Source of the DNA: Desulfuromonas sp. | Lineage (GTDB): Bacteria > Desulfobacterota > Desulfuromonadia > Desulfuromonadales > Desulfuromonadaceae | NCBI GenBank assembly: GCA_021162745.1 | Contig: JAGGYC010000057.1 | Span: 1-34,328, forward strand | Reading direction: 5' to 3' | Length of the DNA stretch: 34,328 nucleotides | Part shown: positions 4,118 to 27,770 of the stretch, piece after piece | How positions within the stretch are numbered: the first letter of the stretch is position 1 | Layout of the letters: the number at the start of each line of letters is the position of its first letter | Program-made: the position numbers and the translations under genes | The notes under the pieces: generated by a model | Told to the model about the DNA's origin: nothing | Seen by the model: only the letters and a program-made list of their open reading frames with translations | Database searches by the model: none

Positions 4118-4499
4118 ACCAACAGGGTGTTGCAAAACGGTACCACGGAAGAAATAGATACCGATCAAGCATTCAAATTATTCAAGTCGTTGTTTTGGAA
4201 AAGTGACCACTCAGTCGGCCTCAAGGTCCGACTTGCCGCCAAGGTGAAGCAAGACGGAAACAGACTCATCGTCGGTGGATGTGCGACCCCCGGAGGGCAA
4301 GGTTTTAAGGCCATTTTTTGCGTACTTTTTTGTGGCCTTTCAAAAAAGTACGTCGGCTGCGGGACGAAACCCGCGAACTTGACTTTAGGTTTTAAGGGTT
4401 TGGAATCAACAGTTGTCGGGTTACGCTCCGCTAACCCGACCTACAAAACTCTCGTTGACGCTCATTACGTTCGGCGGCGACAAACGGGGGACCCTAGTG
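4118..4499 (+). repeat. Multi-hairpin dispersed element, copy 1
   Basis: About 380 bp shared with 6579-6951 (reverse orientation) and partly with 8967-9163. Left boundary is ACCAACAGGGTGTTGCA (4118-4134); right boundary is the GGCGGCGACAAACGGGGG region. Internal inverted repeats are AGTCGG/CCGACT (4213-4218/4228-4233), CGTACTTTTTTG/CAAAAAAGTACG (4321-4332/4341-4352), GCGGG/CCCGC around ACGAAA (4359-4374) and the GTCGGGTTA palindrome (4413-4445). It lies in the gap between moxR and DUF58, 31 bp past the moxR stop. A 128-codon reading frame across it (4127-4513) looks spurious because it only follows the repeat. The element could be a non-autonomous mobile repeat or a structured 3' UTR. Confidence 0.85.
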
Positions 4500-4530
4500 C
4501 CGTACCGATATGAATTTTCGGACAGCCATC

Positions 4531-5725: not shown

Positions 5726-6553
5726 ATGAGTGATCTGCCGGAAATCCCCCTCGGTAAAGCTACCGCCTATCCAGACCAGTATGATGCCGCCCTGTTGTTC
5801 CCGGTGCCGCGTCAGCTTAAACGCGACGAAATCGGCGTCAGTCATCCGCTGCCGTTTTGCGGTGAAGATCAGTGGAACGGCTACGAGTTGTCGTGGTTGA
5901 ACAGCAAAGGTAAGCCGGTAGTGGCGTTGGCGGTGTTCCGTTTCCCCTGCACCTCGGAGTTTCTGGTCGAGTCGAAATCGTTCAAGCTCTATCTCAACTC
6001 CCTCAATCAATGTCGTTTTGCCGATACTCAACAGGTGACACAGCTGTTGCAGCGTGATCTGTCGGCAGTGGTCGGAGCGCCGATGACGGTTGAGTTGAGC
6101 GGTGTCGATGAGATTGAACCGTGGCAGGTGCAGCGTTTGTCGGGGATCTGTCTCGATGAGATTGATCTTGATGTTGAGTATTACCAACTCAAAGCCGAGC
6201 TGCTGATGGGGGCTGCCGATCCGCAGCAGATTGTTGACGAGACCGTCCACAGTCATCTGTTGAAGAGCAACTGCCTGATCACCTCCCAGCCTGACTGGGC
6301 CAGCGTGTGGATCGATTATCGCGGGGCGAAGATTGATCACCGGGCGTTGTTGGCCTATCTAATCTCCTTTCGCCAGCATAATGAATTTCATGAACAGTGT
6401 GTTGAGCGGATCTTTACCGACTTGATGCGCTTTTGTCAGCCGGAGAGGTTGACGGTGTATGCTCGTTATACGCGGCGCGGGGGATTGGATATTAATCCCT
6501 GGCGTAGCACTGAGAAGGGGAGTGCGCCGCACTGGCGGTTGAGTCGGCAATAG
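5726..6553 (+). CDS. queF: NADPH-dependent 7-cyano-7-deazaguanine (preQ0) reductase, long type
   Basis: QueF reduces the nitrile of preQ0 to the amine preQ1 in queuosine tRNA modification, in the cytoplasm. The 275-residue length matches the long (E. coli-like) two-domain form. The family signature ESKSFKLYLNSLNQ is at 82-95. The catalytic cysteine is Cys183 in SNCLITSQPDW, with Asp190 of the same motif as the likely proton donor. The C-terminal domain has DYRGAKIDHRALLAYLISFRQ and HEQCVERIF. The ATG at 5726 follows a weak GAAAGAG site. It appears to be a single-gene unit, divergent from moxR and followed 25 bp later by repeat copy 2. No other queuosine gene is in the window. Confidence 0.96.
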   Translation: MSDLPEIPLGKATAYPDQYDAALLFPVPRQLKRDEIGVSHPLPFCGEDQWNGYELSWLNSKGKPVVALAVFRFPCTSEFLVESKSFKLYLNSLNQCRFADTQQVTQLLQRDLSAVVGAPMTVELSGVDEIEPWQVQRLSGICLDEIDLDVEYYQLKAELLMGAADPQQIVDETVHSHLLKSNCLITSQPDWASVWIDYRGAKIDHRALLAYLISFRQHNEFHEQCVERIFTDLMRFCQPERLTVYARYTRRGGLDINPWRSTEKGSAPHWRLSRQ

Positions 6554-6578
6554 TTTGTTTTTCTATTGCAACGTAACA

Positions 6579-6951
6579 CACCAGGGCCCCCGGTTTGTCG
6601 CCGCCGAACGCAATGGTTTTGTAGGTCGGGTTAGCGGAGCGTAACCCGACAAATGTTGATTCCAAATCCTTAAAACCTAAGGTCAAGTTCGCGGGTTTCG
6701 TCCCGCAGCCGACATCCTTTCTTTGCAAAGCCCCAAAGAAAGGATGCAAAGAAATGGCTTTTGAACCCAGCCCTCCGGGGGTCGCAGATCCACCGACGAT
6801 GAGTCGGTTTCTGTTATGCTTCACCTTGGCGGCAAGTCGGATCTTTCGACCGACTGAGTTAATGGTTATTCATAGCTGAGGCGTTGATTAACTTGGTTGT
6901 TTGGGTGGTGTCTGGTTTTTCCGTGGCACTGTTGTGCAACACCCTGTTGGT
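6579..6951 (-). repeat. Multi-hairpin dispersed element, copy 2
   Basis: Same element as 4118-4499 in the opposite orientation, bounded by the CCGGTTTGTCGCCGCC end next to queF and the TGCAACACCCTGTTGGT end at 6935-6951. It keeps the palindrome at 6620-6651, a GCGGG/CCCGC hairpin, and AGTCGG/CCGACT (6835-6840/6850-6855). Its central hairpin is CATCCTTTCTTTG/CAAAGAAAGGATG (6713-6725/6734-6746), a different sequence from copy 1 but again perfectly paired. The first part is divergent between copies, the middle and palindrome are conserved. A 110-codon frame on the minus strand (6492-6824) is judged repeat-derived. The remaining 150 bp to the thioesterase gene (6952-7101) is AT-rich and shows no gene. 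Confidence 0.85.
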
Positions 6952-9179: not shown

Positions 9180-10415
9180 TTACACCTTCTGCAACACCAA
9201 ACAAACATAACCATACTCCTCCCCATAACGCCGCCAAAGGCGTATCTCTTTGGTAATATCCTCATAGACCTGACTCGGCCCATACTCTGTTTCCGCCTGT
9301 TGGGTGCACTGTTCCATGTCGGCATAAAACGCCAGCCAGTCCGCCTGATCCAAATTAAACCGCTCCATCACTCGATAGCCCCGTTGCTCAGCCTGCAGTT
9401 GCCGCTCGGCAGGCGAGGTCATGGTCGGATATTCCTTCTGCCACCAGTCAGCGCATTCCTGACTCGGCTGGTCGGTCAACCACACCGCATCGCTGACAAA
9501 CAGGTAGCCACCGGGACGCAGTAGCCGCTGCCACTCTTTGAGGGCTTTTTCAAAACCCATCATATAGGCGCAGCCTTCAGCCCACAGCAAATCGAAACTG
9601 CCATCAGCGTAGTCCTCCAATTGTTGCATGTCGCCGAGGATCGCCGTGATCCGTTGGCCAAGCTGTTGTTGTTTGACCTGTTGGTTGACGTCGTCGATAA
9701 ATGGCTGGTGGTTATCGAGGGCGGTGATCTGCGCCTGACTATGCTTGGCCAGTGTAATACCGCTGCTACCGCGACCACAGCCGAGTTCAAGGATGGTTTT
9801 GATCGCCGTCAGATCGCCGCTGGTTTCGTTGGCGCTGATGGCATCGAGGGCATGCAACGTGGCTTGTTCACTACCGGGACCTTGGCGCTGCATCCGTTCA
9901 AAGACTTTGAAAAAATCGTTCATGTAACTGTCGTGTTCGCTCATATCGCGTGATACCCATCGAATGTGGAAAATTTCTTTTTCGCTAAAGCCCATCTGTC
10001 GCAACCATTGGACATGGGCGTCAGCGGAAAGCTGTTCAAAATTGTGGTGCCATTGCTGAAGCTGATGCTTGCTCGCACGGTGATCCATCTGCTTGCCGGT
10101 CTGATGTTTATAGAGCGCTTGGAGTAGCTGTTGCGTAACTTCCATCTGTTGTAGTTCCTGTTGTAAGCGCACAAGATGCTGTTCAATGAGGGTGCTCTCG
10201 ATGTTACCGTTGAGCACCTGTTGGCATTCGTCGAGACTGAATCCGGCCTGTTGTAATTGTCTGAGTACGATTAAGTGGGTGACATCATGTTCGCTATAAC
10301 GGCGATAGTTGTTTTTTGCCAGCCGTCGTGGACTGATGATCCCCAGTCGTTCGTAGTAGAGCAGGGTAGAACGGGCAACGCCTATTTTTTGTGATACTTC
10401 GGTAATGCTATACAT
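9180..10415 (-). CDS. MerR family regulator fused to a SAM-dependent methyltransferase
   Basis: A 411-residue fusion. Residues 1-70 are a MerR winged helix-turn-helix (MYSITEVSQKIGVARSTLLY, YERLGI, RRYSEHDVTHL). Residues 70-105 form the dimerisation coiled coil (Gln/Leu-rich). A helical linker follows (110-200), then a class I methyltransferase domain with motif I ILELGCGRGSSGIT (208-221), acidic TALDNHQPF, and motif IV/V region DLLWAEGCAYMMGFEKAL then LLRPGGYLFVSD. The N-terminus should bind DNA and the C-terminus SAM plus an unknown small molecule. The ATG at 10415 has GGAG ten bases upstream and fits the MerR start; the longer frame to 10463 would lie over the -10 element and is rejected. 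It has its own MerR-type promoter. Confidence 0.9.
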   Translation of the reverse strand: MYSITEVSQKIGVARSTLLYYERLGIISPRRLAKNNYRRYSEHDVTHLIVLRQLQQAGFSLDECQQVLNGNIESTLIEQHLVRLQQELQQMEVTQQLLQALYKHQTGKQMDHRASKHQLQQWHHNFEQLSADAHVQWLRQMGFSEKEIFHIRWVSRDMSEHDSYMNDFFKVFERMQRQGPGSEQATLHALDAISANETSGDLTAIKTILELGCGRGSSGITLAKHSQAQITALDNHQPFIDDVNQQVKQQQLGQRITAILGDMQQLEDYADGSFDLLWAEGCAYMMGFEKALKEWQRLLRPGGYLFVSDAVWLTDQPSQECADWWQKEYPTMTSPAERQLQAEQRGYRVMERFNLDQADWLAFYADMEQCTQQAETEYGPSQVYEDITKEIRLWRRYGEEYGYVCLVLQKV

Positions 10416-10461
10416 CGGTTTTAAACTCCATTTGTGGTGGTTCAGCGCTGATCTGTGAATC

Positions 10462-10492
10462 ACTGTAAGGGATGAACCTTTAGACAGGTCAA
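10462..10492 (-). promoter_or_regulatory. MerR-type promoter (19-bp spacer) of the fusion gene
   Basis: Read on the minus strand: -35 TTGACC (10492-10487), 19-bp spacer, -10 TACAGT (10467-10462). The overlong spacer with strong boxes is the hallmark of promoters activated by MerR proteins through DNA untwisting. An ACCT/AGGT dyad (10476-10479 and 10486-10489) lies in the spacer and -35. The -10 is 47 bases upstream of the fusion ORF, implying autoregulation. Confidence 0.72.
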
Positions 10493-10523: not shown

Positions 10524-11408
10524 TTATAGTCCGTGATCAACACGTGGCCGCAAGTACACCGGAAACTTAGGCAAACCTGAGGCGTAGAATCCGTAATGTT
10601 TAAAGGTGATAATGCTGCCGATGGCCGGTGGAGATTCACGTTCGGCGTCACTGAAGCCGGAACCGATTTTTAAGCGTGTACCATTCTTCAATTCAACCAG
10701 CAGCGCGCCAAGACGACCCTGATTGCGCCCTTTACCGGGCAGCTGAGCGACAACGGTGGCTTCGCTGTCCTGATAGCTTTTGACCTTGAGAATCGTTGTG
10801 CTGCGGCCACGTTCATAACCGGCATTGGGGTGACGGACGATCAATCCTTCACCGCCGAGCTGTTCAATATGGTGTAGCTGCTGCTGGAGGTGATGCTGAT
10901 CGACGACAGGAATCTGCTCGATGACAAAGGCGTAGCGGGAAGGATGGTGTTCAAACCACTGCCGGGCCTGTTCAATCCGCAGTTGAAAGCCGCCGCTGGC
11001 CTGTGGCACATCGAAGATAGCAAGTTTCAGTTCCAGCCAGCCGGGGTGTGGTTGTTGACGACGAACGATTGATGTCGTCTGTTCAAACTGGTCGCGTCCG
11101 CCCCACAGTTCCCCTTCGATGGCAAACGGTGGCAGGTTACGGGTAAATTCAGCCGGAGGATAGAATCGATGGCCGTTTTTCGACCACAGCTGGTGGCCGT
11201 CCCAATAGCCGCGCACGCCATCGAGTTTTTCGCTCATCAGCCAACCGCTGACTTCCGTAGCATCGCTGTAGGTTTGCGGTAGCATAGGGGTGTGAGTGGG
11301 CTGTTGTGCCGTTGCCGGAGTCAGGGATAGAAACAGTAGACACGGCAGGATAAAGAGCACAATGGCCCATTGCACGAGTGGAGGGTGTTTTTCAGGGGGG
11401 ATCGCCAT
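10524..11408 (-). CDS. Exported ATP-dependent DNA ligase (LigE-like)
   Basis: A 294-residue minimal ATP-dependent DNA ligase. Residues 1-35 look like a signal peptide (hydrophobic 13-30, then TPATAQQ). The adenylation domain has motif I EKLDGVRG with nucleophile Lys61, an AIEGELW motif (96-102), GGEGLIVRH (185-193), and motif V TILKVKSYQD (205-214). A short OB-fold follows (TRLKIGSGF...GSIITFKHYGF). There are no extra DNA-binding or nuclease domains. Such small periplasmic ligases are known in proteobacteria and have been tied to DNA uptake or extracellular DNA repair; that role is inferred here. Start at 11408 follows GGAAAG. The gene lies 108 bp upstream of the MerR fusion but the latter has its own promoter. 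Confidence 0.88.
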   Translation of the reverse strand: MAIPPEKHPPLVQWAIVLFILPCLLFLSLTPATAQQPTHTPMLPQTYSDATEVSGWLMSEKLDGVRGYWDGHQLWSKNGHRFYPPAEFTRNLPPFAIEGELWGGRDQFEQTTSIVRRQQPHPGWLELKLAIFDVPQASGGFQLRIEQARQWFEHHPSRYAFVIEQIPVVDQHHLQQQLHHIEQLGGEGLIVRHPNAGYERGRSTTILKVKSYQDSEATVVAQLPGKGRNQGRLGALLVELKNGTRLKIGSGFSDAERESPPAIGSIITFKHYGFYASGLPKFPVYLRPRVDHGL

Positions 11409-18473: not shown

Positions 18474-18487
18474 ATTTACCACTTGTT

Positions 18488-18548
18488 GACGGGAATGGAG
18501 TTCTCCCGGTAACCGCCAGAATGATTGATTCGGCTGATGACTCCTGTG
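18488..18548 (+). ncRNA. Fluoride riboswitch (crcB motif) aptamer
   Basis: The segment fits the fluoride (crcB) consensus: hairpin CGGGA/TCCCG (18490-18494/18504-18508), a GGAGT in its loop (18497-18501), AACCGCC, a second hairpin GCC-A-GAAT/ATTC-GGC (18515-18534), then GGCTGATGACTCC. The loop GGAGT can pair with ACTCC (18540-18544), as in the long-range pairing of this aptamer. The terminator stem just downstream reuses ACTCCTG. Fluoride binding should therefore block the terminator and switch the downstream CLC-F gene on. Recognition is by eye and by context. Confidence 0.87.
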
Positions 18549-18583
18549 TAGAGGCTTTTTAAGTCTTTATGCAGGAGTTTTTT
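18540..18583 (+). terminator. Riboswitch expression-platform terminator
   Basis: ACTCCTG (18540-18546) pairs with CAGGAGT (18572-18578), followed by a T-run. The 5' arm overlaps the aptamer's 3' strand, so the two folds are mutually exclusive. Confidence 0.85.
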
Positions 18584-18621: not shown

Positions 18622-19983
18622 ATGCCATTGCGATGGGATGTACGGGAACATCTGAGTCTGGGCTGGTTCGTGTTGCGCTGGCTGGCGATGATCACGCCGG
18701 TGGCGGCGCTCATCGGTTCCAGTGTGGCATTTTTCCTGTGGTTGCTGGCCGAGGCCACCCAGACGCGCTGGACCCATCCGGATCTGGTCTATCTGTTACC
18801 GCTGGCCGGTATCGGCATCGTCATGATCTATCATCATTTTGGCGACAACGCGGCGTCAGGCAATAACCTGATTATGGAGCAGATCCATCAACCGGGGGCC
18901 GGGGTGCCCAAACGGATGATGCCGCTGGTGTTGTTTGCTACCGTATTCACCCACCTGTTTGGCGGCAGCGCCGGGCGCGAGGGGACGGCGGTGCAGATGG
19001 GCGGCAGCATTGCCCAGGTGTTTGCGGCGCCGTTCAAGCTCAGTAGCGACGATACCCGTATTCTCCTCACCTGTGGTGTTGCCGCCGGTTTCGGTGCCGT
19101 GTTCGGAACGCCGCTGGCGGGGGCGGTGTTTGCCCTCGAAGTGCTAGCCCTGGGCAAGATGCGCTACGATGCCCTGATCCCCTGTCTGATGGCCAGCGTG
19201 ATCGGTGATCTGGTGTGTACCGCCTGTGGGATCGGCCATACCCAATATCGTATTGCCGCTCCTGAGATGCATATTGATGCCGTGGTCGCTCACGTTTCAC
19301 CGCTGTTGGCGGTCAAGGTGATGGTGGCGGCGGTGCTGTTCGGGCTGGCCGGGTTTCTGTTTGCCGAGATGACTCATGCCCTGAGTGGTTTATTCAAACG
19401 CTATGTCTCCCGCTACTGGGTGCGACCGGTGATCGGTGCTGTGCTGGTATTGGGGATCAGTGCTCTCCTCGGTACGCGCGATTATCTGGGCCTGGGCGTC
19501 GGTTCGGCTAGCGCCGATGGCGTTTCGATTATCAATGCCTTCAGTGGTGTCGGTGTGACAGCCTGGAGTTGGTGGTGGAAACTGCTGCTCACTGCCATCA
19601 CCTTGAGCTGTGGTTTTAAGGGCGGCGAAGTGACGCCGTTGTTTTTCGTCGGTGCGACGCTAGGTGCGGCCTTGGCCGGGGTGCTGAATGTCCCCGTCGA
19701 TCTGTTGGCCGGGATCGGTTTTATCGCCGTATTTGCTGGCGCGACCAATACGCCGCTGGCTTGCACTATCATGGGGGTGGAACTCTTTGGCGCTCAATAT
19801 GTAGAATATTTTGCCATCGCCTGTTTTCTATCCTATCTGTTCAGTGGCCATTCCAGCATTTATCTGTCACAGCAGATCGCCATTCCCAAGGGGGGCGTTG
19901 ATCGTTATGGCGCGTTGGATTCGCTCAGGGCGGCCCGTGATGTCCGTTCGTCGTTGCTGGGTAAAAAAACGCCTAAATCCTAA
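18622..19983 (+). CDS. CLC-F type fluoride/proton antiporter
   Basis: A 453-residue CLC family membrane protein with about 10 or more hydrophobic segments. The pore motifs are SGNNLI at 79-84, where chloride CLCs have GSGIP, and GREGT at 118-122 with Glu120 as the gating glutamate. GAVFGTPLAGAVFALEV follows near 151-167. The altered first selectivity motif and the lack of C-terminal CBS domains fit the CLC-F clade, which exports fluoride. The fluoride riboswitch directly upstream strongly supports this role. ATG at 18622 has AAGGAG seven bases before it. It is transcribed from its own riboswitch-controlled promoter. Confidence 0.93.
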   Translation: MPLRWDVREHLSLGWFVLRWLAMITPVAALIGSSVAFFLWLLAEATQTRWTHPDLVYLLPLAGIGIVMIYHHFGDNAASGNNLIMEQIHQPGAGVPKRMMPLVLFATVFTHLFGGSAGREGTAVQMGGSIAQVFAAPFKLSSDDTRILLTCGVAAGFGAVFGTPLAGAVFALEVLALGKMRYDALIPCLMASVIGDLVCTACGIGHTQYRIAAPEMHIDAVVAHVSPLLAVKVMVAAVLFGLAGFLFAEMTHALSGLFKRYVSRYWVRPVIGAVLVLGISALLGTRDYLGLGVGSASADGVSIINAFSGVGVTAWSWWWKLLLTAITLSCGFKGGEVTPLFFVGATLGAALAGVLNVPVDLLAGIGFIAVFAGATNTPLACTIMGVELFGAQYVEYFAIACFLSYLFSGHSSIYLSQQIAIPKGGVDRYGALDSLRAARDVRSSLLGKKTPKS

Positions 19984-23979: not shown

Positions 23980-24067
23980 GGAGAGGTGTCCGAGCGGCCG
24001 AAGGTGATTGACTCGAAATCAATTGTGGCGCAAGCCACCGGGAGTTCGAATCTCCCCCTCTCCGCCA
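23980..24067 (+). tRNA. tRNA-Ser (anticodon CGA)
   Basis: An 88-nt cloverleaf with acceptor stem GGAGAGG/CCTCTCC, discriminator G and encoded CCA. The anticodon arm is ATTGA-CTCGAAA-TCAAT, giving CGA, which reads UCG. A long variable arm (TGTGGCGCAAGCCACC) marks it as a class II serine tRNA. The T arm is GGGAG-TTCGAAT-CTCCC. Confidence 0.97.
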
Positions 24068-27324: not shown

Positions 27325-27414
<90 letters not shown>

Positions 27415-27660: not shown

Positions 27661-27770
27661 AAGCGGCAGTCGGGTCCCGCGCAACGGACGGTCGTGAACT
27701 CCGTCAGGCCCGGAAGGGAGCAGCGGTAACGATGCAGTCGGTGTGCCGCGGGGGTGCCTGGCTGCCACTT
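27661..27770 (+). ncRNA. ffs: Signal recognition particle RNA, small bacterial (4.5S) type
   Basis: The conserved SRP domain is clear: GTCAGGCCCGGAAGGGAGCAG with the GGAA-type loop near 27703-27723, flanked by the symmetric and asymmetric loops. The outer stem pairs GGCAG (27665-27669) with CTGCC (27762-27766). Pairing may extend out to TTGCCG/CGGCAA at 27651-27656 and 27775-27780, followed by a T-rich run (TTTTTGTTTTT) that may be the terminator. SRP RNA binds Ffh and FtsY for cotranslational membrane targeting. It sits just before dnaX, a common arrangement. Ends are approximate. Confidence 0.92.

Follow-up and report, generated by a model that had tools for sequence, protein, structure and literature searches.

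The window, a 34,328-nt stretch of Desulfuromonas sp. DNA (contig JAGGYC010000057.1), encodes on its reverse strand a single protein that joins a MerR DNA-binding domain, a coiled coil and a class I methyltransferase, preceded by a conserved 31-bp promoter element with a 19-bp spacer. Our preferred reading, to which we assign a probability of about 0.58, is that the fusion gene encodes a one-component switch that controls its own promoter and brings its enzyme along, with sensing in a small domain and the methyltransferase as output. The observations behind it are the domain architecture, the conserved promoter, the coincidence of promoter and small domain across genomes, the retention of the core SAM site and the loss of the enzyme at some loci.

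MerR regulators hold an over-long promoter; a spacer of 19 bp exceeds what RNA polymerase can handle unaided. Promoter holding and signal-driven realignment are treated in a review (PMC9909328). For the fusion, we infer DNA binding, a direction of regulation, a ligand, a substrate and detoxification as follows: the MerR HTH of the fusion dimer would bind the 31-bp element; a small molecule would bind the short helical domain that follows the coiled coil; the ligand would trigger realignment of the promoter and more fusion would be made; the C-terminal methyltransferase would be the output, its amount following the signal, and would most likely methylate the inducing or a related toxic compound.

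Fusion protein and methyltransferase

The predicted features of the gene and protein are as follows:
9180-10415, reverse strand: CDS of the fusion MerR/two-His domain/methyltransferase (411 aa, stop included in the coordinates)
10209-10412, reverse strand: MerR winged-HTH domain, residues 2-69 (Pfam MerR_1, 5.6e-18)
10098-10196, reverse strand: long dimerisation-type helix (coiled coil), residues 74-106 (AlphaFold2 model, pLDDT about 53-69)
9942-10067, reverse strand: proposed sensor domain, small and helical, residues ~117-158, containing His123 and His134 (alignments; three low-confidence model helices)
9183-9941, reverse strand: class I SAM methyltransferase domain, residues 159-411 (PDB 3kkz, 7.5e-42; 3t7r, 1.4e-40; Foldseek 3kkz, TMt 0.89)
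9765-9791, reverse strand: SAM-binding loop LELGCGRGS, residues 209-217 (G212, G214 and G216 in 19 of 19 aligned fusions)
10426-10429, reverse strand: GGAG, likely ribosome-binding site, 10 nt before the ATG

The HTH was matched by PF13411 (MerR_1) at 5.6e-18, and PF00376 was also above its cut-off; Methyltransf_25 and Methyltransf_11 matched residues 208-307 (about 2e-17 and 4e-17), and the class I methyltransferase models of Pfam together span about residues 199-331. An AlphaFold2 model of the 411-aa protein, built from 6 sequences, has a mean pLDDT of 81, mostly >80-90 in the methyltransferase and 47-69 for residues 71-160; the MerR-type dimerisation helix after the HTH is present (residues 74-106) at moderate to low model confidence. 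The fusion of MerR HTH, coiled coil and class I methyltransferase in one protein, as given in a preliminary description of this DNA, is real and was confirmed by Pfam and the model. An alternative longer reading of the ORF starts with GTG at 10463, i.e. inside the -10 region of the promoter.

Directly upstream on the same strand lies a gene for an ATP-dependent DNA ligase (10524-11408, reverse strand; NCBIfam PRK09125), whose N-terminus looks signal-like by eye; transcriptional read-through from this gene into the fusion is possible. Elsewhere in the window, a fluoride riboswitch (18482-18553, forward strand; Rfam, 47.7 bits) was found upstream of a 453-aa ORF (18622-19983), as well as two tRNA-Ser genes and a small SRP RNA (23980-24067, 27325-27412 and 27668-27766, forward strand). 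Two opposite ORFs (4127-4513, forward strand; 6492-6824, reverse strand) encode closely similar peptides (RLIVGG.ATPGG...GLRSANPTYKT), and are therefore likely a dispersed repeat element.

Among the nearest solved structures to the methyltransferase by sequence and fold are the Bacteroides proteins 3kkz (Q5LES9), 3t7s (BVU_3255) and 3svz (BT_2972), with 31-33% identity over 241-258 alignment columns and TMt values of 0.84-0.91 among the top 11 Foldseek rows; these structures, however, are those of free-standing enzymes, 257-270 aa long, that have no HTH. Of the SAM contacts listed for BT_2972 in PMC3225368, 11 of 14 are identical in the window protein, with the alignments read by eye. Residues G212, G214, G216, D234, M263 and E280 are invariant in all 19 aligned fusions, C213 is present in 18, R177, G179 and G281 in 17 each, Q178 in eight and G261 in two. 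Hence, a loss of SAM-binding residues from the majority of homologues, named beforehand as an outcome that would count against the proposal, was not found; six residues are retained throughout, and Q178 and G261 vary. A role as DNA methyltransferase or as part of MADS defence was rejected, since neither a [DNSG]PP[YFWH] nor a PC[QN] motif is present and the PADLOC matches are only partial or to the HTH: the mad2 match covers 173 of 492 profile positions, and what the 60-position mad1 profile matches is the HTH.

The promoter element

The following elements were located upstream of the fusion gene:
10462-10492, reverse strand: promoter/operator element TTGACC-N19-TACAGT, 31 bp (sequence and conservation in relatives)
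10487-10492, reverse strand: -35-like hexamer TTGACC (sequence)
10462-10467, reverse strand: -10-like hexamer TACAGT (sequence)

The spacer of 19 bp agrees with the 19-20 bp used as criterion for MerR promoters. The generalised element occurs once in the window (0.01 expected), and one site was found in the 2.9-Mb genome of the window at up to 3 mismatches. A standard sigma-70 scan (spacers of 16-18 nt) yielded 2 sites in the window (2.3 expected), and the fusion promoter was not among them.

Conservation was evident in relatives of graded distance. Upstream of the fusion at locus L029 (73-74% protein identity), the element is identical in 30 of 31 positions, whereas its neighbouring genes are different, as are most of its flanks; at L037 and L038 (fusions of about 50-54% identity) the first 21 bases of the element are exact. 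The element also precedes more distant fusions of the same class and fusions on plasmids (Vibrio, Proteus, Morganella, Photobacterium, Pseudoalteromonas). Searches of the upstream regions of relatives allowed spacers of 17-20 or 19-20 bp, and the conserved match fell at 19. All 23 fusion upstream regions tested contain the element; the mismatches number no more than 2 in 22 of them and 3 in the remaining one (L075), and base-shuffled copies (40 per region) never gave fewer than 5 mismatches. These 23 loci include L038, with the gene cut at a contig end, L078, whose frame stops early, and the near copies L076/L080 and L072/L073; L079 (interrupted gene) and L218 (contig edge) were omitted, and an exact element lies about 1.3 kb ahead of the interrupted fusion gene of L079. 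The 31-bp promoter is, on sequence grounds, real and conserved, and the hexamers and 19-bp spacer of the preliminary description are borne out as placed. A promoter with MerR spacing of the fusion's own is thereby supported, and autoregulation appears likely.

The textbook MerR dyad that had also been claimed for this promoter found no support at the MerR position, neither against shuffled sequences, nor in a 70-site profile, nor in the pairing of the window element. Around the window promoter, no exact inverted repeat has arms longer than 4 bp (ACCT-N6-AGGT), a length reached by 67% of shuffles. In a profile of 70 distinct sites (85 sites), z was -0.7 at centre 13.5 and 0.0 at centre 14, where a MerR dyad would be expected; among the 26 centres listed, 19 (2.6), 10.5 (2.3), 11 (2.0) and 14.5 (1.8) scored highest. 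Matched pairs in the window element amount to 0.7 at centre 19 and 0.6 at 10.5, and to 0.27 at 13.5 and 0.0 at 14. For comparison, control promoters taken as those of bmr and copA gave 0.64 at centre 13.5 and 0.7 at centre 14, respectively, and the off-centre symmetry of the window element is about equal to that of these controls at their own centres. Direct repeats gave a weak signal at shifts of 7-8 (z 2.2, ten shifts tried). The high pairing off-centre and the low pairing at 13.5 and 14 indicate a partial off-centre symmetry and no MerR-type central dyad in the predicted element. Promoters of the CueR/BmrR type share the TTGAC-N19-TA architecture, and bmr presumably also the -10 hexamer TACAGT, but differ, as far as these controls go, in that the fusion element is without a dyad at the expected centre.

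The two-histidine domain and the distribution of the fusion

Between the coiled coil and the methyltransferase, the fusion contains a helical domain of ~45-55 aa with two invariant histidines, which is absent from the preliminary description. Its motif reads W/L-H-x2-F-E...H-x2-F/W-L; both histidines are invariant in a 15-row domain alignment, and His123 and His134 are present in 19 of 19 fusions, which makes them candidate ligand contacts. For two stand-alone relatives of the domain no Pfam or NCBIfam family was matched, and the domain profile searched against the PDB gave a best E of 0.052. A role of this domain in sensing metal, haem or redox state, with the methyltransferase acting on a metalloid or thiol, would fit the conserved histidine pair and an arsenic operon that precedes the fusion at L075, but only 13 of the 19 fusions have Glu at the acidic position 127, the window domain contains no Cys, and arsenic genes were seen at one locus; we consider this improbable.

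A scan for the element in the 277 genomes of the window's class gave 84 sites, spread over 78 genomes; the reversed pattern, used as control, gave no site. The scan pattern was built from sites in front of fusions with the 19-bp spacing fixed, and conservation at its fixed positions is inflated since the sites were picked by the pattern; the positions left free (15, 16 and 21) hold >1 bit each in the site profile. Domain ORFs behind the sites were classified by HMM. A domain ORF lies on the same strand within 2.6 kb downstream at 76 of 84 sites, 13 of which represent the methyltransferase fusion. At 70 of the 84 sites the first domain ORF is a small one of 50-79 aa, taking the longest possible ORF, with little beyond the domain; a second, longer domain ORF follows at 68 sites, nearly always with a MerR HTH (unrecognised at L141), and small plus longer ORF without an intact fusion were found at 59 of 84 sites. 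Nine of the 13 fusion sites have the small ORF in front and four do not (window, L029, L037 and L038), i.e. a separate small domain gene is missing from the window and from the fusions closest to it within the class. No domain ORF was found at eight of the 84 sites, of which L148 lies where its contig ends, fragments remain at L099 and L150, and L097 looks like a chance match. The sites at L109, L111, L138 and L147 have neither a domain ORF nor a fitting target, and two genomes (G162, with L109 and L113; G143, with L111 and L112) hold two or three elements; L109 and L111, without a downstream domain gene, may be further targets.

Counted by genome, the domain profile matches 85 of 277, and the window's genome once, in the fusion. 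Element and domain occur together in 74 genomes, the element only in 4, the domain only in 11 (without an element at the search stringency used) and neither in 188 (Fisher p 7e-50, a value overstated since the genomes are related). This bears on the reading that the promoter belongs to another cellular MerR regulator and that the fusion is only its target: the genome does contain two other PF00376 MerR matches, but with the single domain match in the fusion and the coincidence of element and domain across genomes this reading is highly improbable. The circuit had been suggested to be self-contained, with no other target gene near. For the window's genome this is plausible because it contains one element and one domain protein; it did not stand for some gammaproteobacterial relatives, in which the element also precedes acetyltransferase genes.

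Full-length fusions are uncommon. At 1e-50, 13 of the 277 genomes of the window's class match (12 full length, one split over two contigs), and in the class of Photobacterium carnosum 2 of 369, one being the P. carnosum genome itself. On plasmids, 16 of 69 matching records cover at least 80% of the fusion query; the match rows H4, H5, H8 and H10-H13 are outside the fetched locus set, and L030-L035, plain 131-aa MerR proteins, were left out of the related loci. A full-length fusion (L218:1-1167) lies at the edge of a viral-classed contig, with an apparent recombinase gene (read by eye) on the opposite strand within about 2 kb. A viral origin of the circuit was rejected, with no exact element in IMG/VR (exact pattern only) and this one fusion on a viral-classed contig.

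In a tree built from the regulator parts of 22 fused and 61 unfused proteins (83 in total), the window falls into a set of 13 fusions together with gammaproteobacterial fusions (support 100/100). The fusion label requires 6 changes on this tree, with 4 of them forced by well-supported branches and with long-branch warnings; L125, L096, L078, L206, L139, L141 and L208 were omitted and identical rows dropped. Of 63 unfused regulator loci, 5 have methyltransferase remnants (E<=1e-3) downstream: a strong one at L125 (170 aa at 71%), fair ones at L105 (35 aa at 57%) and L144 (60 aa at 42%) and weak ones at L133 and L153; among the 63 loci, the Vibrio loci L165 and L178 had almost no downstream sequence. 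These remnants behind unfused regulators show, at the level of sequence, enzyme loss with retention of the regulator at some loci; independent gain of the methyltransferase at other loci is possible.

The same observations weigh against the methyltransferase itself as the sensor, with occupancy of its substrate or SAM/SAH pocket driving the HTH and reporting substrate load. The covalent attachment of the enzyme and the core SAM-site residues in 19 of 19 aligned fusions are in its favour, but at most sites a regulator with the same promoter occurs without an intact methyltransferase, and at some loci at least the enzyme was lost and the regulator kept. We regard this reading as rather unlikely, and the earlier idea of sensing through the enzyme is not upheld; that inducer and methylation substrate are one molecule is possible. 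Fused and unfused members have HTH, coiled coil and short domain in common, which makes the small two-His domain the best candidate sensor; sensing probably sits there, and the methyltransferase is probably an attached, dispensable output, by analogy with the arrangement of TipAL/TipAS.

Neighbouring genes, related systems and the proposed family

Further genes are associated with the element in relatives. At the Vibrio loci L072 and L073 a GNAT acetyltransferase gene and the adjacent fusion each have an element of their own in front, and in nine plasmid records with the Vibrio GNAT at 65% identity or more the GNAT gene adjoins the fusion. Photobacterium DA100 has a zero-mismatch element in front of a GNAT gene distant from the fusion; the product of this GNAT gene is 46% identical to the annotated GNAT of L075. 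The Streptomyces plasmid locus L225 encodes methyltransferase and acetyltransferase in one protein, beside rsgA. Two-mismatch elements were found in Vibrio before a DMT-transporter gene followed by an unfused regulator (annotated at L182, by resemblance at L178); the Vibrio plasmids L165, L178 and L182 each carry the DMT-family transporter and an unfused MerR-domain regulator behind such an element. The two-mismatch plasmid sites at L167 and L177 have no fitting target. On the Pseudoalteromonas plasmid of L075, arsenic resistance genes (ACR3, arsJ and others; L075:93-3856) lie directly upstream of the fusion. The enzyme partners together with the DMT transporter suggest a defence against a small molecule.

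RsgA-like GTPase genes (L075:5724-6761, L186:2685-3713 and L225:374-1468) lie directly behind the fusion in Photobacterium (L186) and behind fusion and GNAT gene in Pseudoalteromonas (L075). Their adjacency at L186, L075 and L225 would fit a fusion that modifies a macromolecule, e.g. a ribosomal component, against a ribosome-targeting drug, with the MerR part only timing its production. Only three such loci were found among those fetched, however, RsgA relatives occur in 184 plasmid records, and for BT_2972, among the nearest solved structures, PMC3225368 proposes a small-molecule enzyme, its substrate being a hydrophobic small molecule; a macromolecular target is therefore unlikely.

The closest functional parallel to the fusion system is TipAL/TipAS of Streptomyces, where, according to PMC7762955, a full regulator and a stand-alone effector domain derive from one autoregulated gene and the stand-alone copy sequesters the ligand; TipAL/TipAS and SkgA have, from the same source, a MerR HTH, a coiled coil and a helical C-terminal effector domain, to which the window protein offers counterparts with the small domain as putative effector domain, and its own conserved element and the small domain ORFs of relatives may correspond to their autoregulated promoter and stand-alone effector copy. 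In contrast to the TipA class, the domain here comprises about 50 aa, its stand-alone form has an upstream ORF to itself (70 of 84 sites; absent in the window), and a methyltransferase is attached. Membership in the TipA class was rejected, as TipAS (PF07739) is not among the Pfam matches. Among other enzyme-regulator fusions, Ada is an AraC-type regulator with a methyl-transfer enzyme in one chain that induces itself and repairs DNA. Ada resembles the fusion in joining regulator and methyl-transfer enzyme in one chain, with self-induction that is likely for the fusion too, but differs in its AraC type and in DNA repair, the fusion being without a DNA methyltransferase motif.

More tentatively, and with the balance of probability against it as a whole, the fusion may belong to a family of MerR switches with a two-His sensor, in which a separate domain protein of ~60 aa under the same promoter would act as a ligand sink or brake, and to which the enzyme was fused in some lineages, across at least two phyla. 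No description of a MerR-methyltransferase fusion was found in the titles and abstract beginnings retrieved from the open PMC literature, and we consider this variant of probable MerR autoregulation, with fused methyltransferase and a proposed separate sensor domain, to be new.

If the preferred reading is true, the fusion gene would represent a compact and portable sense-and-modify circuit with a defined 31-bp promoter, and its sensor a domain for which Pfam and NCBIfam gave no family. A MerR-type promoter without a central palindrome raises the question of how the dimer reads it, and nature supplies controls in the form of variants that have or do not have the enzyme, and that have or do not have the separate domain protein.
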